Positions 5,357 to 61,879 of a DNA stretch of 64,000 bases are shown here, in pieces. Below the pieces are notes generated by a model. It worked only from the letters and a program-made list of their open reading frames with translations, did no database searches and had not been told where the DNA came from. Source of the DNA: Methylobacterium sp. (GTDB lineage Bacteria > Pseudomonadota > Alphaproteobacteria > Rhizobiales > Beijerinckiaceae); assembly GCA_020252645.1 (NCBI GenBank), contig JADCCN010000010.1:1-64000 (forward strand). Reading direction: 5' to 3'. The position numbers and the translations under genes are program-made. How positions within the stretch are numbered: position 1 is the stretch's first letter; every line of letters starts with the position of its first letter.

Positions 5357-6286
5357 TCAGGCGGGATCGGCGGTGGCCAGAAAATCGAGAATCGCGGCGA
5401 TGGTCGGCTCATCCTCCAGCAATGGCGCATGGCCCTGCTTCGGCGCGATATGCAGCCGCGCGGCTTGGCTGAAATCACCTTCCGCATGCCGCGCGACCAT
5501 CGCCTCCGCCGTCTCCTGCGAGAGGAGATCGGAAAGCTCGCCGCGGATCAGCATGAAGGGCACGGGCTTCAGCGCATCGAATTGCGGCCAGAGCGGGGGA
5601 ATGGGTTTTTCGAGGTCGAGATCCGCCAAGGTGCGCATCAGGTTGGTATCGTAGCGCGGAACCAGCCGGCCATTCTCGCTTCGCCAGACCCGGCGGGCAA
5701 AGGCGAGCCAGCTCTCGTCGCTCTCCTCCGGGAAGGAGCCCCCGAACAGGTGCTTCAGCGTGATGACGGCCTGATCTTCCGAACGGGGCGTCGGGATCTT
5801 GCCGACATAGGAACGGATGCGCGCGAGCCCCTGCGCCTCGATGATCGCGCCGATATCGTTGAGGATCGCGCCTGCCAGCACGCCCGGTCGCGTAATGGCC
5901 GTGAGCATGGTGAGAAGCCCGCCGCGCGAGGTGCCAAGGAACAGCGCACGCGGGATGCCAAGGGCGGTGAGGGCGGCGTGGAGATCCTCCAGCTCCACCA
6001 TGAGATCGTATTTCTTCCAGTCGGAATCATAATCCGACAGGCCCCGGCCGCGATAATCGAAGGCCAGTACGCGCCGGCCCTGATCCCGCGCGATGCGGTT
6101 GCCGACCACCTCGAAATCGAGCGCATTGCGGGTGAGGCCGGGAAGGCAGATGACCGGCAGCCGAGCGGCATGCCGGTCGCCCGTTTCGGCGATGTGCAGG
6201 CGAAGCCCGTCCCCCGAACGGTAGAACAGGCTGCGCCAGCCCTGGAGTTCGGGATGCGGCGTTGCGGGATCAGAAGGCATCGGCAT
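5357..6286 (-). CDS. Alpha/beta-fold hydrolase
   Basis: 309 aa. Shows the oxyanion region ([10 protein letters not shown]), the DYRGRGLSD block typical of haloalkane-dehalogenase/epoxide-hydrolase-like enzymes, the nucleophile elbow GTSRG with catalytic Ser, and a C-terminal His in KQGHAPLL. Substrate cannot be predicted. The start at 6286 has a GGAGA ribosome site 7 nt upstream. It is divergent from dapA, with 122 bp between the two starts. Confidence 0.82.
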
Positions 6287-6408
6287 CACGTCTCTCCTGC
6301 GCGATTTCCTTGCCGTTCTATCCGCAGTGGTTGACGCGGCAAGCGTTTTCCGATGAAACCTTCGTCCTGCCGGGCACAAGATCCGGCATTCGATATGGAC
6401 CCTTTCCG

Positions 6409-7311
6409 ATGACTGCTCCGGCCAATGCCCATCGTTTCCGCGGTTCCTTCACGGCTCTGGTGACGCCGTTCAAAGGCGGCGCGCTTGATGAGGCGGCGTT
6501 CCGCGAGCATGTCTCCTGGCAGATCGCCGAGGGCACGAATGGCCTCGTGCCGGTGGGCACCACCGGCGAAAGCCCGACGCTCTCCCATGACGAGCACAAG
6601 CGCGTGGTGGAATGGTGCATTGCCGAGGCCAGGGGCCGCGTGCCGGTGATCGCCGGCGCGGGTTCGAACAACACCGCCGAGGCGATCGACCTTGCAAGGC
6701 ATGCCGAAAAGGCAGGCGCCGACGCGCTGCTTGTCGTCACGCCCTATTACAATCGTCCGACGCAGGAAGGGCTCTACCAGCACTTCAAGGCGGTGAACGA
6801 TGCCGTGGGCATTCCCATCTTCATCTACAACATTCCGCCGCGTTCGGTGGTGGACATGTCGAACGAGACGATGGCCCGGCTGTTTGAACTGAAGAACATC
6901 GCCGGCGTGAAGGATGCGACCGCCAATCTCGCGCGCGTTTCCCAGCAGCGCCACCTCTGCGGCAAGGATTTCATTCAGCTCTCGGGCGAGGACATGACGG
7001 CGCTCGCCTATAACGCGGCGGGCGGCCATGGCTGCATCTCGGTCGTGTCGAATGTCGCGCCGCGCCTCTGCGCGGAGATGCAGGCCCTGAGCCTCAAGGG
7101 CGATTTCGTCGGCGCGCTGAGCGTTCAGGATCGCCTCGTGCCGCTGCATGATGCGGTGTTCAGGGAGCCGGGCCTGGCCGGCGCGAAGCACGCGCTGAAG
7201 CTGCTGGGACGCATGAACGAGGAAATCCGCCTGCCGATGATGCCGGTTGCACAGGAGGCGACGAAAGCCGCGCTGCGCTCGGCACTCCGGCATGCGGGCC
7301 TCACGAACTGA
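6409..7311 (+). CDS. dapA: 4-hydroxy-tetrahydrodipicolinate synthase
   Basis: Condenses pyruvate with aspartate semialdehyde, the committed step to diaminopimelate and lysine. 300 aa, the usual length. The TTGES block (Thr51-Thr52), Tyr140 in YNIPPR and the Schiff-base Lys168 in GVKDAT are all present. ATG 6409 is chosen because homologues begin about ten residues before [10 protein letters not shown]; the longer frame upstream overlaps the divergent hydrolase start. paiB and smpB follow on the same strand. Confidence 0.95.
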
Positions 7312-50717: not shown

Positions 50718-53096
50718 TCATCCCGGTAGGAAGCCCGTCGCCATCAGGAAGCGCCGCAACACCCCGCGCATCGGCTCGAAGCGGAAAGTCACTGTCTTGA
50801 CGCCGGCCGGCAGGATGACCGCGCGGAAGATGCCGTTGGCACGCAGAACCGGCGTGGATTTCCCGTCGATTTCCGCAAACCACCAGGGGTGCCAGATGTC
50901 GTTCAGCAGCAGCACGCCGCCGCGCTGGGCATCGGTTTCCACCGTGATCTCGGTGTTGGTGTAGCGCGTGATCCTTGCCGTTCCGCCGAGGCGCGTGCGC
51001 GGCAGGGGCAGCGAGGTGCGCTCGATATAGGCGACGCGGCGGAAATCGGTGCCCGGCCATTCGCCGAGTTGCAGCAGCCGGGTCTGATCCACGATCTGCG
51101 CCTCGTTCACCACCATCACGCGGGGCAGCGCATCCGGGTTCTCGTAGATATAGGCGTCCTTCGTGCGCGCCACGAGCGGCAAGGGGTTGGAGCGAATGCG
51201 CGGGTCGACCTCGGCGATCGGCGCGCCGATCGCGATGAAGCGCAGGCCCATCAGGTTCGCGAAGGGCGAGCGGTAGGAGGGGAAGAGCGGGGCGAAATTA
51301 TGCTGCTCGATGCCGGCGACCTGGTCGCCAGCGCCGGTGGCCGTGGCGTAATGCTTCAGGCGCAGCGGGTTGTAGCCCAGGGTATTCTCGAGGCCATGCA
51401 CAAGGCCGAGATTGGGCCAATGGAAGCCGAGCCCGGCAATCTCCACGCGGTCACGGCGCGTGCCATCCTCGACGATGTGCTTCTTGAGTTCGAGGATGGT
51501 GTCGTTCTGCGTCTCAAGCCGAAGCGCGTCATATTCGGCGATGGGAAGGCCGGTGGAATCACTGGGACGCATGTTCCAGCCGAAATCGGCCGCGAGCAGA
51601 GCCGCGAAGGTCGTCGCCGCGAGAACGGGGCGCCTGAGGGCGATCGGCCGCACCAGGAGCACGACGATGAAAGTCGCCGCAACGAAGCCGAAGGCGATCA
51701 GGATATCGAAAGCGGATTGCTGCAGCTTGCCGAGCCAGATCGCCATGCCGATGGCCGCCGCGAACCCCGTGACCACAAGGCCGCCGAGCACGACTATCGC
51801 ACCGCGCCCGATCTCCTCGCCGCGGCGGATCAGATGATCGAGGCCGAACCCGGCTAGGAAGGCCCCGAGCGCGCTGACGAGGAACAGCGAATCCGCCGGT
51901 CGCCGGAAGAGCGAAACACCCGGAAGCGCGTGGTAGAGCACACCGAAGATCGGCGTGTATTTCCCCAGCGCGTAGAGGATCATCAGAATGAACATGATGC
52001 CCAGCGCCATGAAGCGATGGCCATAGGCCCGGCGCGAGGTGAGCCACAGGACGATGGCCGCGAAGGGCAGCACGCCCATGTAGAAATTCGCCATGTTCCG
52101 CGCCACGACGAGATTGACGATATAGGGCCAATGGACGCTCGGCGCGCCCCAATACTGCTCATTCGGCCCAATCGTCCCGAAGAGGTTCGCGACAAGCAGG
52201 GTGAGCAGGCTCGAGGGATGCAGCGAGCCCATCTCCGCATCGGCAATGGTGAAATGCGGGCGGTTCGATTCGGCGGCGAAGCTCAGCACCAGGATGGTCG
52301 GCAGAGCGATGATCGCCGTGCCGACGACCAGGCCGGCCAGCAGCGGCTTCAATGTCGCGCGGAAGCGCCCGACAAAGGCGCCGCCGGTCATCCAGTAGGC
52401 CACGACATAGCCGCCCAGCGCGACAAGCGTGAGGAATGCCACCTGGTCCGGGTCAAGCGCGGTCAGTGCCGCGAACATCCCGGCAAGCGCGCCATAACGT
52501 GCCGAGCCAAGGCGCAGGCCGCGCTCGAGCATCCACAAGGCCCAGGGAAAATAGATGAGCGAAAAAATCTGCCCCGTATGCTGGATGCGCCAGGATGCCG
52601 CCCCGCCATAGGCAAAGGCGATGGCCGCCACAAGGGCCGCCGCGGGGTGCCAGCGCCGGTCCCGCCCGAAGCCCAGCACGCCGAAGGCGCCAAACAGCAG
52701 GCCGAGAAACGTCACGCCATCCACCATCCGCATGGACGGATCGGGCGTCAGCGAGGCCAGAAGCAGATGGGGCGGGGAGAAGATCAGCGATTGCGGGTCG
52801 GCGATCTGCGGGTGCCCGCCGAACACGAAGGGCGCCCAGAAAGGGCTTTCGCCGCGATGGAGTGATTGGGCCAGAAACACCACCTGCGCGTGAAAATGCG
52901 CCTTCGCATCCCATGGAATGGTAACGGCGCCCGAGAGCCAGGGCCAGGCCAGTCCCGCCCAGACCAGCACCAGCAGGCCGGAAGCCGACAGCCAGACCCG
53001 CGCATCATCCCCCGGAGGAACAACCGGGGGGTAGGTGATGCGGGGCAGAGGGACCGTGGAAAGGTCCCTCCCCGGTTCAGGTGATTTCTGGAGCAT
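50718..53096 (-). CDS. YfhO-type integral membrane protein, possible glycosyltransferase
   Basis: 792 aa with about 12-14 transmembrane helices, then a C-terminal extracytoplasmic domain of about 240 residues. GT-C-like start (WLSGAVTIPWDAKAHFHAQVVFLAQSL with acidic residue in the first loop) and the FGGHPQIADPQ block are typical of bacterial YfhO/DUF6044-like proteins. Family members in Firmicutes modify lipoteichoic acid with sugars; here the acceptor is unknown. Start at ATG 53096 near the signal-anchor. Upstream of ribA by orientation only. Confidence 0.75.
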   Translation of the reverse strand: MLQKSPEPGRDLSTVPLPRITYPPVVPPGDDARVWLSASGLLVLVWAGLAWPWLSGAVTIPWDAKAHFHAQVVFLAQSLHRGESPFWAPFVFGGHPQIADPQSLIFSPPHLLLASLTPDPSMRMVDGVTFLGLLFGAFGVLGFGRDRRWHPAAALVAAIAFAYGGAASWRIQHTGQIFSLIYFPWALWMLERGLRLGSARYGALAGMFAALTALDPDQVAFLTLVALGGYVVAYWMTGGAFVGRFRATLKPLLAGLVVGTAIIALPTILVLSFAAESNRPHFTIADAEMGSLHPSSLLTLLVANLFGTIGPNEQYWGAPSVHWPYIVNLVVARNMANFYMGVLPFAAIVLWLTSRRAYGHRFMALGIMFILMILYALGKYTPIFGVLYHALPGVSLFRRPADSLFLVSALGAFLAGFGLDHLIRRGEEIGRGAIVVLGGLVVTGFAAAIGMAIWLGKLQQSAFDILIAFGFVAATFIVVLLVRPIALRRPVLAATTFAALLAADFGWNMRPSDSTGLPIAEYDALRLETQNDTILELKKHIVEDGTRRDRVEIAGLGFHWPNLGLVHGLENTLGYNPLRLKHYATATGAGDQVAGIEQHNFAPLFPSYRSPFANLMGLRFIAIGAPIAEVDPRIRSNPLPLVARTKDAYIYENPDALPRVMVVNEAQIVDQTRLLQLGEWPGTDFRRVAYIERTSLPLPRTRLGGTARITRYTNTEITVETDAQRGGVLLLNDIWHPWWFAEIDGKSTPVLRANGIFRAVILPAGVKTVTFRFEPMRGVLRRFLMATGFLPG

Positions 53097-53141: not shown

Positions 53142-54263
53142 TCAGTCCGTCAGCGGCGCATGGGCGACCATCGCATCGAAATCGATGAAATGGCCGGCGC
53201 GGTCACGCTTGGAAGCAAGGTAGCGCACGTTCTCGGCCGTCGGGCGGCCATAGGCGCGATTATCGGCCACGACCTCGAGACCCGACGCCTTCAGCGCGCC
53301 GATCTTCTCGGGGTTGTTGGTCATCACGCGGACGCTGGTCACGCCGAGCCTGCGCAGCATCTCGGCCGCGAAGTCGAAGCGACGCTGGTCGAGGCCGAAG
53401 CCCAGAACCTCGTCGGCATCATAGGTGTCCCAGCCCTGCGACTGGAGCTTGTAGGCGCGCATCTTGTTGGCAATGCCGTTTCCGCGGCCCTCCTGATCGA
53501 GGTAGAGCAGGATGCCGCCATCGGCCTGCGCCATCTTCTGCACGGTGCCGCGCAGCTGGTCGCCGCAATCACACTTCAGTGAGCCGAAAAGGTCGCCGGT
53601 GAGGCAGGCGGAATGCATGCGGATGGCCACGGGCTTTGCGAAATCCGGCTTGCCGACGATGATCGCCACCTGGTCGCGCAGGCCTTCGCCGCCGCGGAAC
53701 ACCACGAACTCGGTCTCGGCCGCGAATTCCAGCGGCACGGGCGCGCGGCCGACGATCTGGATGGCCTTCACCTGCGCCGCACGATAAGCGCGGATGTCCT
53801 TCAGCGAAACGCGCACAAGATCATCGGTCAGCGCCGAAGCCGGCACCGGAATGGCATAGACGGCCGGGGTGAGCAGCGCGAGGCGCGCCAGCTCGATCGC
53901 GCCTTCGTCCGGCATGGTGGTGGGTGAAACCGGCGCGTCGATCCGCGCATCGATCTTCAGGGCCAGCGTTTCCACACGCGCCGCATCCGGCACCGGAAAG
54001 GCCACGATACCGGGCTGCTGACGATCCAGACCCAGACGACGCAGGCGCGCCGCGGGGATGATGAGCCGAGCGCGGCCCGGGGCGAGCGTGTCGAGGCCTT
54101 CCGCGATCCGCTGGGTCAGAGCGTCCACCAGAAGCACGACGAGGGCTTCCCCCCCTTCCAGAACCGCCACGGGGCGGCCGGCGCGGAATTCGGCGATGGC
54201 GCGATCTACCGCGCGTTCATCCGCAGTATCGAAAAGCCCAAGAACTTCGGCAACTTTGCTCAT
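53142..54263 (-). CDS. ribA: GTP cyclohydrolase II with degenerate RibB-like N-terminal domain
   Basis: 373 aa. C-terminal GTP cyclohydrolase II domain with zinc ligands in CLTGDLFGSLKCDCGDQL and catalytic LYLDQEGRGNGIANK...YDADEVLGFG. Opens the imidazole ring of GTP as the first step to riboflavin. The N-terminal 170 residues have the outline of DHBP synthase, but its acidic DDEDREN-type active site is replaced (AVLEGGEALVVLL), so DHBP synthase activity is unlikely. ATG 54263 chosen on family length. Divergent from the RibD_C gene. Confidence 0.88.
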   Translation of the reverse strand: MSKVAEVLGLFDTADERAVDRAIAEFRAGRPVAVLEGGEALVVLLVDALTQRIAEGLDTLAPGRARLIIPAARLRRLGLDRQQPGIVAFPVPDAARVETLALKIDARIDAPVSPTTMPDEGAIELARLALLTPAVYAIPVPASALTDDLVRVSLKDIRAYRAAQVKAIQIVGRAPVPLEFAAETEFVVFRGGEGLRDQVAIIVGKPDFAKPVAIRMHSACLTGDLFGSLKCDCGDQLRGTVQKMAQADGGILLYLDQEGRGNGIANKMRAYKLQSQGWDTYDADEVLGFGLDQRRFDFAAEMLRRLGVTSVRVMTNNPEKIGALKASGLEVVADNRAYGRPTAENVRYLASKRDRAGHFIDFDAMVAHAPLTD

Positions 54264-54483: not shown

Positions 54484-55200
54484 ATGCTTCCTTCTACGTG
54501 CCAGAGCGCTGAACCGTTCCGTTTTTTTCGTGCGAACGATGCGGATCGCCCGTTCATCGTCGCGCAGCTCGGCCAATCGCTCGACGGGCGCATCGCAACC
54601 GTCACGGGCGACAGCAAGTATATCGGCAGCCGCCCTTCGCTCGCCCATCTCCATGCCATCCGCGCCCATGTGGATGCGGTTGTGGTGGGCATCGGCACGG
54701 TTCTGGCGGATGATCCGAAACTCAATGTGCGGCTTTGCGAAGGCCCGAATCCGGCGCGCGTCGTCATCGATGCGAAGGGCCGGCTCCCGGCCGCCGCGCA
54801 ATGTCTCGACGGTTCCGATGGTGCGCGGCGGGTCGTGCTGCGCGGCCCGGATGCGAGAGGCGAGACCCTGCCTGCGGGCGTCGAGGTTCATCGCCTGCCC
54901 ACAAGTGCTGCGGGGCGGTTCGATCTCGTGGAACTCGCGCGGGCGTTGCGGCGTCTCGGTTTTGAGCGCGTGCTGCTGGAAGGCGGCGCGGCGATGATCT
55001 CGCAGGCGATCGATGCCGGCATCGTCGATCGGCTGCACCTCATGGTCTCGCCCGTGCTGATCGGCTCCGGCCAGCCCGGTCTCGAGCTCGAACCGGTGCA
55101 GCGCCTGGCCGATGCCCGGCGTCCTGTCGTGGAGGTGACTTTGCTCGGCGAGGGCGAGGTGTTATTCGATTGCGACATCAGTTCCAGGAAAAGGGGTTGA
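54484..55200 (+). CDS. Stand-alone RibD C-terminal (DHFR-like) reductase
   Basis: 238 aa. NADPH-binding reductase fold: FIVAQLGQSLDGRIAT, AHVDAVVVGIGTVLADDPKLNVRL, VLLEGGAAMISQAIDAGIVDRLHLMVSPVLIGSG. The deaminase domain of RibD is absent. Full ribD is present elsewhere in the window, so this copy may reduce another pyrimidine or pterin compound. 220 bp upstream separate it from ribA and contain a short inverted repeat CACTT-ATCAC-AAGTG (54347-54361). ATG 54484 has GGTGAAAG upstream. Cytochrome b561 starts 2 bp after it. Confidence 0.82.
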   Translation: MLPSTCQSAEPFRFFRANDADRPFIVAQLGQSLDGRIATVTGDSKYIGSRPSLAHLHAIRAHVDAVVVGIGTVLADDPKLNVRLCEGPNPARVVIDAKGRLPAAAQCLDGSDGARRVVLRGPDARGETLPAGVEVHRLPTSAAGRFDLVELARALRRLGFERVLLEGGAAMISQAIDAGIVDRLHLMVSPVLIGSGQPGLELEPVQRLADARRPVVEVTLLGEGEVLFDCDISSRKRG

Positions 55201-55202
55201 CC

Positions 55203-55757
55203 ATGGCATCGGGAACCGAACCGCAATCCTATTCCAGCGCGCAGAAGGTGCTGCACTGGCTCATCACGCTGCTGGTGCTGATGATGGCTCCCATCGGATT
55301 CTACATGGTCAACCGCGGGGAGAAGACCAATTTCGACGCGCTCACCAACACGCTCTACACCAACCACAAGACCTTCGGCTTCCTCTTCCTGATGCTCGTC
55401 GCCTTGCGCATCGTCATCCGCTCCCGGCAGGGTGTTCCCGCGCCGGTCTCCACGCTCACGCCATTCGAGCGCCTTGCCTCCGAGGCGGTGCACAAGGGCT
55501 TGTATGCGTTGATGGTTCTCGTGCCGCTGCTCGGCTGGGCAGGTGTATCGGCCTTTCCGGCGCGCGGCATCCTCTTCGGGCTTTCGCTGCCGCCGATCAT
55601 GCCGGTGAACGCGGATCTCGCGAAGTTTCTCCTTCAACTCCATGGCTACGCGGCCGTCGCCATGCTGGTGCTGATCGCGGCGCATTTCACCGGTGCCATG
55701 ATGCATCGCTTCGTCAAGAAGGATGGTGTGATGCGCCGGATGATGCCCGGCGCCTGA
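55203..55757 (+). CDS. Cytochrome b561 family protein
   Basis: 184 aa with four transmembrane helices. Haem-ligand His candidates: KVLHWL, TNHKTFGF, AVHKGLYALM, LHGYAA and AHFTGAMMH. Likely moves electrons from quinol across the inner membrane. Directly coupled (2 bp) to the RibD_C reductase gene. Confidence 0.85.
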   Translation: MASGTEPQSYSSAQKVLHWLITLLVLMMAPIGFYMVNRGEKTNFDALTNTLYTNHKTFGFLFLMLVALRIVIRSRQGVPAPVSTLTPFERLASEAVHKGLYALMVLVPLLGWAGVSAFPARGILFGLSLPPIMPVNADLAKFLLQLHGYAAVAMLVLIAAHFTGAMMHRFVKKDGVMRRMMPGA

Positions 55758-55790: not shown

Positions 55791-56642
55791 TCAGGCCTTC
55801 GCAGCGAGGATATCGGTGTGACCGGTCTTCATGCGCGAGCCCTTCTGGTCGCCCATGGAGGTGCGCCAGAACAGCCAGTCATCCGCGCCATTGTCGGCGA
55901 TCAGCCCGGTTTCCATCACCGCGCCATGCAGGCCCTTCAGAAGCTCGGTCTTGAGCGCGATATCCGAAGGTTTCAGCACCCAGGGTGTGTCGGCTGCTTC
56001 CACGCCATAGCCCGCTTCCTTCAGCAGGCGAGCCAGCGTGGCAGCGGCCATCGGCCCCTCCGCCGGACCGAAGCCCTTGTCGCGCTTCTGGTGGATCTTG
56101 AAGGCGTTGATCATGCCCCAATCGAAGGGGTGGGCGGGGATGAACTCGTCCTCGCCGTTATAGGTCAGCACCGTATAGAAGATCGCGGGCGTGGATCTCA
56201 GCGCCTGCACGAAGCGGCGCATCCAGGGTTCGGAGATGAGATCGAACAGGGCCGAGGCCGTGACGATGTCGATCTCGCCCGAGATGACCTTCTCGAGTTC
56301 GATATTGAGATCCGCGATGCGGAAGGTGACGCCGATCTTCCTGCCCTCCTTCACCAGCACGAGTTTTTCGCCGATCGTCCTGGCCTCGTCCGCCCATTCG
56401 GTCAGAACCCTGGCGGCGCGTTCGATCAGGGCGGGATCGTAATCCACGAGCGTCCAATCCTGGTTCGCCCCGAGGGCCGGCGCGGTGGCGCGCAGGTTCG
56501 AGCCCGTGCCACAGCCGAGATCGGTGATGCGCAGGGTATCGCGTCCCTCGACGCGCCTGGCGAGACTGGCAAGCAGCCCGGCGGAACGGGAGCGATGGTC
56601 GGCCGGCTCGCGCAGAGCCAGCCAATCGGCGGAGAAACCCAT
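55791..56642 (-). CDS. Class I SAM-dependent methyltransferase
   Basis: 283 aa. SAM-binding motif I ITDLGCGTGSNLRA near residue 38, acidic strand-2 end in LVDYDPALIE, motif IV region DIVTASALFDLISEPWM. Acceptor not predictable. Last gene of the tight leftward four-gene operon, 2 bp after the glycosyltransferase. Confidence 0.85.
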   Translation of the reverse strand: MGFSADWLALREPADHRSRSAGLLASLARRVEGRDTLRITDLGCGTGSNLRATAPALGANQDWTLVDYDPALIERAARVLTEWADEARTIGEKLVLVKEGRKIGVTFRIADLNIELEKVISGEIDIVTASALFDLISEPWMRRFVQALRSTPAIFYTVLTYNGEDEFIPAHPFDWGMINAFKIHQKRDKGFGPAEGPMAAATLARLLKEAGYGVEAADTPWVLKPSDIALKTELLKGLHGAVMETGLIADNGADDWLFWRTSMGDQKGSRMKTGHTDILAAKA

Positions 56643-56644
56643 GG

Positions 56645-57730
56645 TCAGGGGCCTTTCGAGGCAGGGGAGACGAGATTCGGGCCATTGCCGGCAAGGCCTT
56701 GCAGCGCGCCGGCGATGATGCGGGCCGTATCCTCCCAGGCCGGGAGATTCTGGCCCGCGCGATGAGCGGCCTCGGCGAGGCGCGCGCGCAATCCGGGGTC
56801 GGCGAGGGCGTCGTCCAGCGCCTTGCGGAGCGCCGGAACATCGCCCGGCGGCACTTTCAGTCCCGCGCCATCCGGCACGGTCTCGGAGGCCGCGCCGCCC
56901 GTGGTGGTGACGATGGGAAGCCCGCGCTGCAAGGCTTCGCCGAGGACCATGCCATAGCCCTCGAACAGTGAGGACATGACAAAGAGATCAGCCGTTTCAA
57001 ACAGATGATCGAGATCGCGATCCGTCACGGCGCCGAGGAGCCGGATATGCCCGTCAAGGCCGGAGAGGCGGATCTGGTCGCGCAGGGCATCCACGGTTTC
57101 AAGGCTGCGCGCCGTGCCGGCGATGCGCAGTTTCCAGTTCCGGCGCTTCAGGCCGTGAAGCGCCTCGACGAGCACACCATAGCCCTTGCGCGGCACGATG
57201 GAGCCCACCGCAAGCATGTTCACGACATCGGATCTGGAACCCAAGGCGCGCGATTTCCGCGCCGTGCCGGGCTCCGCGACCGTGATCCTGGCGCGCGGCA
57301 CGCCAAAATCGCCGGCCAGAATCTTCGCAGTGAGCGGGGAGGTGACAATCACGTGTTCCGCCAGGGCGAGTGCGGCCGATTCCGAATCATGCAAAGTCGC
57401 CGCTCGCTCCGGCGAGATGCCGTTCTCCAAGGCGAGCGGATGATGGCAGAGCGCCACGATCCGCCGGTTGAAGCGCCGGATCAGCTCTTCCGGCATCGCG
57501 CCATAGGCGAGGCCATCGATCAGCAGGATGCAATCGGCGGGCAGGCTCGCGATGATCGCGGCACTATGCTCGAGATCCGCCGCGCCCGGGTTGGGGTAGC
57601 TGCCGGGCAGGGCCACGTGCAGGACCTCCACCCCTGCCTGCGGCAGGAGGCGGATCACCGCGCGATCATAGGCATAGCCGCCTGTGGGCAGTGCGAGATC
57701 GCCGGGGATGACGAAGGCGACCCTGGTCAT
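56645..57730 (-). CDS. GT4-family glycosyltransferase
   Basis: 361 aa GT-B fold. N-terminal FVIPGDLALPTGGYAYDRAV (Gly-rich acceptor loop) and C-terminal donor domain AVGSIVPRKGYGVLVEAL, ADLFVMSSLFEGYGMVLGEALQRGLPIV with the ExxxxxxxE motif and GAGLKVPPGD. Probably a retaining glycosyltransferase using a nucleotide sugar. ATG 57730 overlaps nothing but sits 4 bp after the pterin-synthase-like gene; GTG 57748 is an alternative. Confidence 0.86.
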   Translation of the reverse strand: MTRVAFVIPGDLALPTGGYAYDRAVIRLLPQAGVEVLHVALPGSYPNPGAADLEHSAAIIASLPADCILLIDGLAYGAMPEELIRRFNRRIVALCHHPLALENGISPERAATLHDSESAALALAEHVIVTSPLTAKILAGDFGVPRARITVAEPGTARKSRALGSRSDVVNMLAVGSIVPRKGYGVLVEALHGLKRRNWKLRIAGTARSLETVDALRDQIRLSGLDGHIRLLGAVTDRDLDHLFETADLFVMSSLFEGYGMVLGEALQRGLPIVTTTGGAASETVPDGAGLKVPPGDVPALRKALDDALADPGLRARLAEAAHRAGQNLPAWEDTARIIAGALQGLAGNGPNLVSPASKGP

Positions 57731-57734
57731 CGAC

Positions 57735-58136
57735 TTACGCAACCGCACCCTCGAACCAGGCGCGGGCGAGGTCGGTTTCGTGCAGAGTCACGCGGATCTT
57801 CGTCAGGCCCTTGCCATCCTCGCCGAGCGCGCCGGATTTCGCGGCCTTCACCATCTCCCCGAAGATGTGACGGGCGAGGAATTCCGTGGTGGTGAGGATG
57901 CCCCTGAACTGCGGCAGCTCGTCGAGGTTCTGGTATTTCAGCGGCTTCAGCACGGCCGCGAGCGTTTCCAGCGCGGCACCAATATCGACCACCACGTTCT
58001 GCTTCGTCATCGTCTCGCGGAAGAAGGCGACATCCACCACGAAGGTGGCGCCGTGCATGTTCTGCGCCGGGCCAAAGAACGGATCGGGCAGCGAATGGCC
58101 GATCATGATGCGATCACGGACTTCAACGGCGAACAT
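57735..58136 (-). CDS. 6-pyruvoyltetrahydropterin synthase/QueD-like protein
   Basis: 133 aa T-fold protein. Recognisable by RIMIGHSLP (first His), NMHGATFVVDVAF (second His), TTTEFLARHIF and the C-terminal Glu in IRVTLHETDLARAW. Departures from QueD/PTPS: the catalytic Cys region before HGH is GPAQN, with no Cys, and the HGH pair is HGA, so one zinc His is Ala. It may bind a pterin-like ligand without the classical reaction or catalyse another step. Second gene of the four-gene operon. Confidence 0.82.
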   Translation of the reverse strand: MFAVEVRDRIMIGHSLPDPFFGPAQNMHGATFVVDVAFFRETMTKQNVVVDIGAALETLAAVLKPLKYQNLDELPQFRGILTTTEFLARHIFGEMVKAAKSGALGEDGKGLTKIRVTLHETDLARAWFEGAVA

Positions 58137-58147
58137 GGGGCGGTTCC

Positions 58148-59128
58148 TTAGTAGCTCACGACAGTGACGAGACCTTTCGCATCCGTGGCGAGCAAGCGCG
58201 GAATGGCGTCGGGCAAGGCGTGGAAGGGAAGCGTTTCGGTCAGAAGCGCATCGAGCCTTTCGTCGCGGAGTAAGCGCAAGGCTGCCTGAAGGCGCGATGA
58301 ATAAGACCAGCCGCGCGATGCATGTCCCGGCGAGACCATGCCGACCTGCGAGGAGACGAGCTTCACCCGGCCCGCATGGAAATGCCCGCCGAGCGGCACC
58401 ATCAGCGGCTTCTCGCCATACCAGGAAAGTTCGATCACCGTTCCGTTGGGGGCGGTCGAGGCAATGGCTGACGCGAGGCCCGGCTGGCTGGCGGAGGCGT
58501 GGAAGACGACATCCTGGTGCTTCGGCGCCTCGGCCGGCAGGGCGAATCCTGCGCCGAAGGCTTCGGCCATCGCGGCGCGTTCGGGGTTCACGTCCACCAG
58601 CGTCACCTCCGCGCCGGGAAAGCGCGCGGCAAGACAGGTCACGAGCAAGCCCACGAGGCCACCGCCCACGATCGTCACGCGGTCCGCAGCACTCATGCCG
58701 GAATCCCAGATCGCGTTGAGCGCGGTTTCCATATTGGCGGCGAGTGTCGCGCGCGGAGTGGGGACATCATCGGGAATGAGCTGGAGCATCGCGGTTTTCG
58801 CGTTGAACGCATCCTGATGCGGGTGGAGCACGAAGACGCGTTTGCCAACGAGTTCCGCCGGCCCCTCCTCCACGCGCGCGACCGCGCAATAGCCGTATTT
58901 CACGGGGAAGGGGAAATCTCCCGCCTGGTGCGGGCAGCGCATCCGCTCGCGCTCGCCTTCGGGCACGAGGCCCGAAGCGATGAGCCGCTCCGTTCCGCGC
59001 GAGAGTGCCGATGCGAGCATCACGAGCCGCGATTCATCCGCCAATGGCGGTTCCACGCGCTCCTCGCGCAGTTCGGCCTGCATGGGCCCGACATACCAGA
59101 GCGCGCGGGCGGCGGTGGATGAGAACAT
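58148..59128 (-). CDS. Zinc-free MDR-type alcohol dehydrogenase family protein
   Basis: 326 aa medium-chain dehydrogenase/reductase. Rossmann motif VTIVGGGLVGLLVTCLAA followed by VTLVDVNPER, and the substrate-domain piece PVKYGYCAVARVEEGP. The catalytic zinc Cys is replaced by the ALSRGTERLI block and the structural-zinc Cys loop is missing. First gene of the leftward operon, promoter likely in 59129-59310 shared with opgH. Confidence 0.84.
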   Translation of the reverse strand: MFSSTAARALWYVGPMQAELREERVEPPLADESRLVMLASALSRGTERLIASGLVPEGERERMRCPHQAGDFPFPVKYGYCAVARVEEGPAELVGKRVFVLHPHQDAFNAKTAMLQLIPDDVPTPRATLAANMETALNAIWDSGMSAADRVTIVGGGLVGLLVTCLAARFPGAEVTLVDVNPERAAMAEAFGAGFALPAEAPKHQDVVFHASASQPGLASAIASTAPNGTVIELSWYGEKPLMVPLGGHFHAGRVKLVSSQVGMVSPGHASRGWSYSSRLQAALRLLRDERLDALLTETLPFHALPDAIPRLLATDAKGLVTVVSY

Positions 59129-59310
59129 GGTTGCACCGTTCCAGTTTGCTTCTGTTCAGATTGCGCATGGCAGGTAGCGCCCGCCCAGGCGGGGAAACCC
59201 GTTTCGCGCCGGTTTCGCAACGAACCCTTTTCATGCCAGAGAGGGACACGCAAGGCGGGACTTTTCAGGCGCTCGCCCCATTTGATTTGCGTCCGAAAGG
59301 CCGACCCGAC

Positions 59311-61107
59311 ATGACGACCACCACCGAGCCCGCCGCCCCCCGCGCCGAGCTTCCCCTGACCCCCACCGGCACCCAGAGCGCCGAGGTGCTGATGCTGCGC
59401 CGCATCATCGTGGCGGGCCTCAACATTTTCCTCTATCTCGCCCTGGCTGCATGGGCATGGTCCATTCTCGCGGTCGAGGGTTGGTCGATCGTCGATATCC
59501 TGCTGTTCATCTGCTTCCTGTTCGGCACGCCCTGGGCGGTTCTGGGCTTCTGGAACGCCGTCATCGGCCTCATCCTGCTGCATGGGCCGCGCAACGCCAT
59601 GCAGGATGTCGCGCCCTTCGCCTCGATTGCTGATCCCGCCATGCCCGTGACGCTGAAGACCGCGATCTTCATGACGCTCCGCAACGAGGACCCCTCGCGC
59701 GCCTTCCGCCGCCTGCGGCTGGTGAAGGAAACGGTGGATGCCACGGGCCATGGCGAGAAATTCGCCTATTTCCTGCTCTCCGATTCCAGCAAGGAGGATG
59801 TGGCGGCGCAGGAGGAGGAGCTTTTCGCCGCATGGAAGGCCGAGGCCGGCGAGGCCGCGCCGCTCTTCTATCGCCGGCGCACGGAGAATACCGGCTTCAA
59901 GGCCGGCAATGTGAAGGATTTCCTGAACCGCTGGGGCTCTGATTACGACCTGATGCTGCCGCTCGACGCCGACAGCCTGATGGATGGCGAGACAATCCTG
60001 CGCCATGTCCGCATCATGGAGGCGAACCCGAAGCTCGGCATCCTGCAGAGCCTCGTGGTCGGCATGCCCTCGCAGAGCCTTTTCGCGCGCGTCTTCCAGT
60101 TCGGCATGCGGCAGGGCATGCGCTCGTACACGATGGGTCAGGCCTGGTGGGTGGGCGATTGCGGCCCGTTCTGGGGGCATAACGCGCTTGCGCGCATTGC
60201 GCCGTTCCGGGATCATTGCGAATTGCCGGTGCTGCCGGGTCCGCCGCCCTTCGGCGGGCATATCCTCAGCCATGATCAGGTGGAAGCCACCTTCATGCGT
60301 CGCGCCGGTTATGAAGTGCGCGTGATGCCGGAGGAGGGCGGCTCCTGGGAGGAAAACCCGCCGACCATCCTCGAATTCATGAAGCGCAATACCCGCTGGT
60401 GCCAGGGAAACCTGCAATATTTCAAGCTTCTGGATACCAGGGGGCTCTTTCCGGTCAGCCGCTTCCAGCTGATCTGGGCGATCCTGATGTTCCTCGGCAT
60501 CCCCGCCTGGACGCTGATGCTGCCGCTGGCGGCGCTGAAGCCCTTCGATGGCGAGAGCCTCGCGGCCTTCCCCGTGGGCTCGGCGCTGGCGCTCTACATC
60601 TTCTTCACGATCATGAACCTCATGCCGAAGATCGCGGGCCTGCTGGATATTCTTCTCACCCCCGGCGGCACGAAGCGCTATGGCGGCACGGCGAAGTTCC
60701 TGTTCGCGGGACTGAGCGAGATCGTTTTCGCCTGGATCCTCGGCGCGTCGGATACGTTCCGCACCACGGTTTTCATCGTCGGCCTCATCTTCGGGAAGTC
60801 GGTGACCTGGGGCGGGCAGGCGCGTGATGCGCATGGCGTGCCGTGGGATGTCGCGATCTCGAATCTCTGGCCGCAGACTTTGTTCGGCTTCGTTGTGGTG
60901 GGCCTGATGGCCGCGACCTCCATCCCGTTCGCGCTCTGGTCGCTGCCGCTCACGCTCGGCTTCCTTGTCGCCATCCCCTTCGCGGTATGGAGCGCCGAGC
61001 CCGCGCTCGGCGTCGCGAGCGTGCGAAGCGGGCTCTACGCGATCCCCGAGGAAATCAACACCCCGGCCATTGTCGCGAAGCTCCGCGCCCGGGAAGCGGG
61101 GCTCTGA
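59311..61107 (+). CDS. opgH: Glucans biosynthesis glucosyltransferase OpgH/MdoH
   Basis: 598 aa membrane GT2 enzyme for osmoregulated periplasmic glucan backbone. N-terminal helices (about 28-75), GT2 core with SSKEDVAAQE, LPLDADSLMDG (DxD) and the RNTRWCQGN (QxxRW-like) motif, then about six C-terminal helices. Shorter than E. coli OpgH at both ends. ATG 59311 is preferred; 59233 is possible. OpgG is not present in the window. Followed at 1 bp by a FkbM methyltransferase. Confidence 0.88.
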   Translation: MTTTTEPAAPRAELPLTPTGTQSAEVLMLRRIIVAGLNIFLYLALAAWAWSILAVEGWSIVDILLFICFLFGTPWAVLGFWNAVIGLILLHGPRNAMQDVAPFASIADPAMPVTLKTAIFMTLRNEDPSRAFRRLRLVKETVDATGHGEKFAYFLLSDSSKEDVAAQEEELFAAWKAEAGEAAPLFYRRRTENTGFKAGNVKDFLNRWGSDYDLMLPLDADSLMDGETILRHVRIMEANPKLGILQSLVVGMPSQSLFARVFQFGMRQGMRSYTMGQAWWVGDCGPFWGHNALARIAPFRDHCELPVLPGPPPFGGHILSHDQVEATFMRRAGYEVRVMPEEGGSWEENPPTILEFMKRNTRWCQGNLQYFKLLDTRGLFPVSRFQLIWAILMFLGIPAWTLMLPLAALKPFDGESLAAFPVGSALALYIFFTIMNLMPKIAGLLDILLTPGGTKRYGGTAKFLFAGLSEIVFAWILGASDTFRTTVFIVGLIFGKSVTWGGQARDAHGVPWDVAISNLWPQTLFGFVVVGLMAATSIPFALWSLPLTLGFLVAIPFAVWSAEPALGVASVRSGLYAIPEEINTPAIVAKLRAREAGL

Positions 61108-61108
61108 C

Positions 61109-61879
61109 ATGGCGCTCTCCACCCTGGAAATCTCGGCGCTCACGAAGAAATGGCCGCAACTCAGGCGCTCCTTCGAGGTGTATCACGGCGATCAGTCCCG
61201 CGATGATGCGATGGATGCGCTCTATGCGCGCTTCCTCTCCGCGGGATCGCTGGCCTTCGATGTGGGAAGCCATGTCGGAGACCGGATCGGCTCGTTCCGC
61301 CGCTGCGGCGCGCGCGTCGTGGCGCTCGAACCCCAGCCGGATTGCGCAAGCGCGATCCGCCTCATCTTCGCGGGAGATGCGGGCGTGACTTTGCTCGAAA
61401 GCGCCTGCGGGCCGAAGCCCGGCGAAATCACGCTGCACGTGAATTCTGCGAACCCCACCGTCTCCACCGCATCGGCGGATTTCCTGAAGGCGGCGGATGG
61501 CGCGGCGGGCTGGGAAGGCCAGCTCTGGGATCGCGAGATCCATGTGCCGGTCACCACGCTCGATGCGCTGATCGCGCGATATGGCATGCCGGATTTCGTG
61601 AAGATCGACGTCGAGGGTTTCGAGGCGGATGTGCTCGGCGGGCTGACGCGCGCCATTCCGGCGCTTTCCTTCGAGTTCACGACCATCCAGCGTGATGTGG
61701 CCTATCAATGCCTGGCGCTGATCGCGAAGCGCGGGGCCTATCGCTTCAACATCGCGCTTGGCGAAAGCCAGAAGATGGCCTTCGCGGAAGCCGTTTCGGC
61801 CGAGGCGATGGAAGCGCATATCCGCGCCCTGCCGCATGAAGCGAATTCGGGAGATGTCTATGCGTTTCTCGATCGCTGA
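61109..61879 (+). CDS. FkbM-family SAM-dependent methyltransferase
   Basis: 256 aa. FDVGSHVGDRIGSFRRCGARVVALEPQPD carries motif I and the acidic ribose ligand; PDFVKIDVEGFEADVLGGL is the FkbM hallmark. Probably methylates a sugar or other O-acceptor. Between opgH and a secreted protein, so possible glucan decoration. Confidence 0.86.
   Translation: MALSTLEISALTKKWPQLRRSFEVYHGDQSRDDAMDALYARFLSAGSLAFDVGSHVGDRIGSFRRCGARVVALEPQPDCASAIRLIFAGDAGVTLLESACGPKPGEITLHVNSANPTVSTASADFLKAADGAAGWEGQLWDREIHVPVTTLDALIARYGMPDFVKIDVEGFEADVLGGLTRAIPALSFEFTTIQRDVAYQCLALIAKRGAYRFNIALGESQKMAFAEAVSAEAMEAHIRALPHEANSGDVYAFLDR

Follow-up and report, generated by a model that had tools for sequence, protein, structure and literature searches.

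A conserved gene set around a PTPS-IV T-fold protein of Methylobacterium: a candidate pathway that leaves riboflavin synthesis at an early stage

What does a pterin-synthase-like protein do when its gene sits between a dehydrogenase and a glycosyltransferase, next to genes for early enzymes of riboflavin synthesis? The question is raised by a stretch of 64,000 nucleotides (the window) from Methylobacterium sp. (assembly GCA_020252645.1, contig JADCCN010000010.1, positions 1 to 64,000), in which four minus-strand open reading frames (ORFs) encode an MDR dehydrogenase, a PTPS-like T-fold protein, a GT4 glycosyltransferase and a methyltransferase (MT). The original prediction, made from the DNA letters and translations, held that these genes form one transcript for a glycosylated, methylated pterin or a related metabolite, and pointed to ribA and a RibD_C-type reductase beside them. 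Reading the sequence gave the same intergenic gaps of 11, 4 and 2 bp, and profile hidden Markov model (HMM) scores over the cut-offs confirmed the four families as well as the two adjoining genes. The features are as follows.

58148 to 59128, minus strand: MDR dehydrogenase, cluster-specific family (PF00107, 34.2 bits, cut-off 31.8)
57735 to 58136, minus strand: PTPS-IV T-fold protein (SCO6650 family), signature FGPAQ (PF01242, 73.0 bits, cut-off 22.4)
56645 to 57730, minus strand: GT4 glycosyltransferase (Glycos_transf_1, PF00534, 106.5 bits, cut-off 26.4)
55791 to 56642, minus strand: class I SAM methyltransferase, cluster-specific family (Methyltransf_25, PF13649, 32.9 bits, cut-off 27)
54484 to 55200, plus strand: stand-alone RibD_C pyrimidine reductase (PF01872, 130.5 bits, the sole Pfam family in the ORF)
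53142 to 54263, minus strand: GTP cyclohydrolase II RibA, 373 aa (PRK08815, 496.8 bits, cut-off 464)

The start of the GT4 gene was taken as the ATG at 57730 and not that of a longer GTG ORF. The spacing, together with the conserved gene order described below, suggests that MDR, PTPS, GT4 and MT are transcribed together. We consider it probable, at roughly 0.6, that a dedicated pathway, in part plasmid-borne, has these four genes at its core and leaves riboflavin synthesis at its first steps.

In an even sample of 289 genomes of the class the PTPS-like protein was found in 36, which span 30 genera; because these genomes are relatives of each other, counts in this sample are not independent draws. 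It was present in 17 of 17 sampled genomes of the genus and in 21 of 41 relatives. The cluster-type MDR occurred in exactly the same 36 class genomes, at 355 bits or more, and the next match scored 64 bits. Similarly, the cluster-type MT was found in 33 of the 36 (best match at least 212 bits) and in none of the other 253, where the next genome scored 43 bits. The three PTPS-IV genomes lacking it were G093 (87% complete), G284 and G315. The cluster-type RibD_C, at 245 bits or more, was present in 30 of these 36 genomes and in a single one of the 253; matches below it start at 173 bits and are ordinary RibD-like proteins. That one genome (G166, 74% complete) is the only one without PTPS-IV to carry any of MDR, MT or RibD_C. 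It has RibD_C alone, on a contig with a CDP-alcohol phosphatidyltransferase (CDP-PT) gene, and no MDR, PTPS, GT4 or MT was found on that contig. In G271 a distance of 63 kb separates PTPS from the MT, yet PTPS, MDR and MT are all retained.

A neighbourhood check, set beforehand as the refuting test, found the genes together in many genomes and not only in this one. Among 127 fetched loci (L052 to L177 and the window; duplicates were kept, most are near relatives and some are cut by contig ends), MDR was directly upstream of PTPS on the same strand in 114, GT4 was directly downstream of PTPS in 108, and the complete order MDR-PTPS-GT4-MT was found in 92. We also counted neighbours within 9.5 kb of PTPS in a set of 35 loci, namely 34 from class-sample genomes (G001 left out) and the window. 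MDR was present in 34, GT4 in 33, MT in 31 and RibD_C in 27. In seven Rhodobacterales loci (L105, L106, L112, L117, L124, L125 and L136) RibA, MDR, PTPS, MT and RibD_C follow one another on one strand with no GT4 between, which indicates that ribA and the RibD_C gene belong with the set.

The T-fold protein is the sole PF01242 match in its genome. It carries the residues FGPAQ, of which F, G, P and A are kept in 23 of 23 aligned family rows and Q in 22. This motif has been published as the signature of PTPS-IV, a COG0720 subfamily (cluster-node 62), with PF00925 and PF01872 given as neighbours of the 561-sequence PTPS-IV cluster (PMC5445326). In the window both RibA and RibD_C lie within 5 kb. 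Judged by signature and neighbourhood, the window protein belongs to PTPS-IV. Among solved structures just one is close: 3D7J (SCO6650 of Streptomyces coelicolor), a full-length homologue (E 2.1e-36) that is labelled uncharacterised. The paper on that structure is said to report that zinc and the catalytic triad are both absent.

We found that position 24, which aligns with the catalytic Cys of QueD, is Ala in 23 of 23 rows, as is position 30, which aligns with one zinc His. Position 67 is Asn in 16 rows, Ala in two, and Lys, Arg, Gly, Ser or His in one each, but never Asp. Position 68 is Tyr in 20 rows, Phe in two and Leu in one, and the Asp-His pair of QueD is thus replaced. H14, H28 and E120 are invariant in all 23 rows. 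On the roles that we take these residues to have in QueD and PTPS (catalytic Cys, Asp-His pair, zinc His and anchoring Glu), the alignment indicates that PTPS-IV has lost the canonical PTPS/QueD catalytic residues and keeps the anchoring Glu. Motifs of the other subfamilies were also compared with the window protein and do not fit. It has AQNMHGA where QueD (PTPS-I) has CxxxHGH; it has no Cys before HGA, and HGA instead of HGH, where PTPS-II has CxxxxxHGH; and it has QNMHGA where PTPS-III has ExxHGH.

The family extends beyond the class. At least 579 stretches of the genome collection encode a PTPS-IV relative, and the closest named relative among the matches listed is from Rhabdaerophilum calidifontis, at 93% identity (L052). 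When 299 genomes of the phylum were searched with the profile, 19 matched at 193 bits or more, followed by a gap down to 55.6 bits. Six of the 19 are outside the class, all of them Pseudomonadota, and each of the six encodes CDP-PT, MDR, PTPS, GT4, MT and a protein of the PF03706 family; in four of them the MT was recognised by HMM only. RibD_C was found in five; the locus of the sixth lies near a contig end. Many genomes of one family-level group in the phylum sample (f187, for example L203) match the PTPS-IV profile at 32 to 51 bits. Most of these matches cover more of the sequence than ordinary QueD-like ones do, and the group may hold an intermediate subfamily.

PTPS-IV is encoded by 20 records of the plasmid collection. 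Of the 12 examined, eight have an annotated MDR before PTPS, two of these without an adjacent GT4. The order MDR-PTPS-GT4-MT is kept on plasmids of Methylosinus, Streptomyces, Thiodictyon, Microbacterium, Rhizobium and Agrobacterium, and MDR, PTPS and GT4 were detected by tblastn on an unannotated Arthrobacter plasmid. The block thus also occurs on actinobacterial plasmids, and across its recurrences the accompanying RibD_C, RibA, creatininase, CDP-PT and PF03706 genes vary; no RibD_C was found within the stretch read around the Streptomyces fungicidicus block. On three linear Streptomyces plasmids (L234, L235 and L236) the PTPS-IV gene lies among genes for MBL-fold, cupin, sigma-factor and BTAD regulator proteins, and its product is 76 to 82% identical to the clustered S. 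fungicidicus copy.

The dehydrogenase has a PF00107 match without an ADH_N match. Its best NCBIfam model is BchC, at 37.3 bits over about three quarters of its length; the curated cut-off is 291.25, and BchC was rejected as its identity. In an alignment of 24 rows no column has Cys in more than 15. This suggests that the MDR is probably zinc-free and distantly related to BchC.

The window RibA scores above its curated model and carries the zinc-cysteine motif, HSACLTGD...CDCG, as well as the RAY motif. RibD_C has PF01872 alone, that is, a reductase domain without a deaminase, and the best PDB matches of its profile are 6p8c (named diaminopyrimidinone reductase) and 2azn (named putative aminouracil reductase). 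The substrates of both enzymes are assigned here by family. The window's genome has three matches to the GTP cyclohydrolase II family (PF00925), the third on contig C19, and two to RibD_C; a full RibD lies in a riboflavin operon at about 36 to 39 kb of the window (gene names read from the ORFs). The RibA motif could be read in 50 of 56 RibA loci and has Tyr in 49 and Met in one, from Streptomyces (L133). A stricter pattern, which read only 6 of the 56, was dropped. A Tyr to Met change is what we take to make SCO6655 stop at the formylamino intermediate. The Streptomyces cluster locus carries a creatininase. A creatininase-annotated formamidase acts on the formylamino intermediate, according to PMC9478397.

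From the gene set, its conservation and co-occurrence and the loss of the PTPS active site, all of which are observed, we propose the following route, by which the set would probably turn GTP into a modified pterin-like compound. RibA would open the ring of GTP and so yield the diaminopyrimidinone ribosyl phosphate. The Streptomyces route might pass through the formyl intermediate, with the creatininase-family protein taking off the formyl group. Next, the stand-alone RibD_C would convert the ribosyl to a ribityl chain without deamination of the ring, giving the ribityl diaminopyrimidinone phosphate, and the MDR would oxidise a side-chain hydroxyl to a ketone. If the 2'-hydroxyl were the one oxidised, attack by the 5-amino group could yield a dihydropterin. 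PTPS-IV, through its conserved Glu, might hold a 2-amino-4-oxopyrimidine or a pterin and help the ring to close or the molecule to rearrange into a pterin-like compound, acting without the catalytic Cys, Asp and His and without a full zinc site. MT and, in most loci, GT4 would then decorate the product. In many loci CDP-PT and the PF03706 protein could attach it to the membrane or move it across. The chemistry of the MDR and of PTPS-IV, the product and the membrane link are speculative.

The membrane step draws on the CDP-PT family, in which D132, D135, G136, R140, G149, D153 and D157 are kept in 21 of 21 sequences. We take these residues to be the active-site motif, and since they are kept CDP-PT is probably active; together with PF03706 this hints at a lipid-linked product. 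In its full form the proposal is of a pterin that is methylated, in many cases glycosylated, attached to a membrane lipid and built without GTP cyclohydrolase I, with the MDR acting on the 2'-hydroxyl and a zinc-free T-fold protein closing the ring. This form is tentative, and we think it unlikely to be right in every part.

Several observations weigh against a dedicated branch pathway. GT4 does not follow PTPS in the seven Rhodobacterales loci nor in L238, so glycosylation is not universal, and this part of the original prediction has to be narrowed although the conserved unit behind it stands; GT4 does follow PTPS in another Rhodobacteraceae locus (L110). The cluster-type RibD_C is absent from 6 of the 36 PTPS-IV genomes, one of them just 68% complete, and the three Streptomyces plasmids named above have a solitary PTPS-IV with no reference cluster genes within 7.5 kb (E 1e-8). 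The formyl-intermediate link is not strict, because a creatininase also occurs with a Tyr-type RibA in L147, L153 and L161, that is, in three of the four motif-readable loci with a creatininase. RibA itself lies within 9.5 kb of PTPS-IV in just 12 of the 35 loci. Furthermore, the RibA half of a RibBA on contig C12 (L179) has no zinc-cysteine motif, and the window RibA may for this reason mainly serve riboflavin. It may be the only intact classical GTP cyclohydrolase II of the genome, the third PF00925 match (C19) being outside this comparison. These last points would suit a neighbourhood in which RibA and RibD_C serve riboflavin only, and the product of MDR, PTPS-IV, GT4 and MT is an envelope compound with no connection to them. 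However, the genome has the full RibD in its riboflavin operon besides the stand-alone RibD_C, RibD_C tracks PTPS-IV across the class, and the co-directional Rhodobacterales loci join RibA and RibD_C to the other genes. We regard this explanation as unlikely.

Other known pathways fit less well. A source of dihydroneopterin for folate that is independent of GTP cyclohydrolase I would agree with the finding that neither FolE nor FolE2 was detected in 4 of the 36 PTPS-IV genomes (G000, the window's own, and G200, G267 and G297), and we treat the missing enzymes as a lead. FolE is nevertheless present in 32 of the 36, including the genus-mate G001, and an assembly gap is possible in G000 (25 contigs; 99.74% complete), which leaves the folate role a slim chance. 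A toxoflavin-like 7-azapteridine antibiotic is slimmer still. GTP cyclohydrolase II, a RibD-type protein and a methyltransferase also begin toxoflavin synthesis, where the original prediction places them too, but to our knowledge MDR, PTPS-IV and GT4 are not toxoflavin genes, and the presence of the cluster in genomes of 1.4 and 1.6 Mb is a poor fit to a specialised antibiotic. That PTPS-IV is a QueD of queuosine precursor synthesis is hardly credible. Six plasmid records name the protein 6-carboxytetrahydropterin synthase and attach Gene Ontology queuosine terms, and the QueD model does give a weak score, but that score is 31.5 bits against a cut-off of 89.25, and three genomes (G363, G496 and G521) have a second, weak PTPS match besides PTPS-IV. 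The queuosine annotation is wrong because the QueD/PTPS catalytic residues, including the Cys and one zinc His that are Ala throughout and the Asp-His pair, are absent. F420 biosynthesis, a role stated for PTPS-IV in 2016 from unpublished data (PMC5041015), is just as improbable. In G284 one contig holds PTPS-IV and, about 9.4 kb away, a CofH gene, but the FO synthase CofH scores over its cut-off in just 7 of the 36 genomes with PTPS-IV, and none was found in that of the window; the F420 role thus fits most PTPS-IV genomes poorly.

The dedicated branch pathway also has a wider circle of neighbours. Beyond the original prediction, the canonical PTPS active site is gone, and CDP-PT, PF03706 and creatininase genes are part of the wider set. 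In the window the following features adjoin the core.

55203 to 55757, plus strand: cytochrome b561, frequent neighbour (PF01292, 96 bits)
59129 to 59310, no strand: divergent intergenic region between the MDR operon and mdoH (position only)
59311 to 61107, plus strand: MdoH-type glucosyltransferase, divergent neighbour in many loci (MdoH models up to 874 bits)
61109 to 61879, plus strand: FkbM-type methyltransferase, recurrent neighbour (PF05050, 58.2 bits)

Judged by position alone, the intergenic region likely holds the promoters of the MDR operon and of mdoH. Within 9.5 kb in the 35 loci, CDP-PT was found in 10, MdoH in 8, cytochrome b561 in 7, and creatininase and FkbM in 6 each, a CDP-PT/FkbM fusion in L170 being scored as FkbM. 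BLAST detected PF03706 (LPGtm) in none of the 35, yet the family is clearly present elsewhere. None of the 35 loci combines CDP-PT with MdoH; outside this set, L124 and L127 have both. A survey of shared families, which used the longest non-overlapping ORFs of 72 chosen loci and can be distorted by GC-rich shadow ORFs, placed cytochrome b561 and MdoH near PTPS-IV in 31 of 72 loci each. It merged FkbM and CDP-PT into one group, probably via L170, where a single ORF at 5440 to 7176 fuses a CDP-alcohol phosphatidyltransferase domain with an FkbM methyltransferase domain. Directly downstream of ribA in the window is a large ORF (50718 to 53096), probably a membrane protein, whose family is near PTPS-IV in 6 of the 72 loci, the window counted. 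The two small genomes, G200 (L153, 1.6 Mb) and G297 (L161, 1.4 Mb), keep MDR, PTPS, GT4, MT, creatininase, RibD_C and RibA together, and a TAA is reported inside the RibD_C match of G297.

The cluster is real, conserved and uncharacterised, and its PTPS-IV subfamily and RibA/RibD_C neighbourhood are already known. The original prediction knew of no named system with this set. That holds for the set as a whole, for which no account as a pathway was found in the literature searched, which left out most subscription papers and preprints; it does not hold for the T-fold protein, which fits the published PTPS-IV (PMC5445326) and has the orphan structure 3D7J as its relative. This structure and the subfamily now gain a tight set of partner genes, and their function becomes directly testable. 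The queuosine role given in the six plasmid records is contradicted by the protein's own residues. If the proposal is true, alphaproteobacteria, other Pseudomonadota and actinobacteria would share a GTP-derived metabolite whose genes are kept in genomes of 1.4 and 1.6 Mb and carried on plasmids, a considerable gap in present knowledge.

Compared with known systems, PTPS-IV shares with QueD and PTPS (PTPS-I and PTPS-II) its Pfam family, two of the three zinc His positions and the anchoring Glu, with roles as we take them to be, but the catalytic Cys, the Asp-His pair and the third zinc His are replaced. With the published PTPS-IV the window protein has in common FGPAQ and the PF00925 (RibA) and PF01872 (RibD_C) neighbours; the accessible part of that account names no MDR, GT4, MT, CDP-PT, PF03706 or creatininase partners and assigns no function (PMC5445326). 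SCO6650 is its full-length homologue with an orphan structure. The bacteriochlorophyll dehydrogenase BchC is the top-scoring NCBIfam model for the MDR, yet far under its cut-off. Early riboflavin synthesis and, presumably, toxoflavin synthesis use the same first enzymes on GTP-derived pyrimidines. In contrast to both, RibD_C stands alone here and is accompanied by T-fold, MDR and usually GT4 genes.

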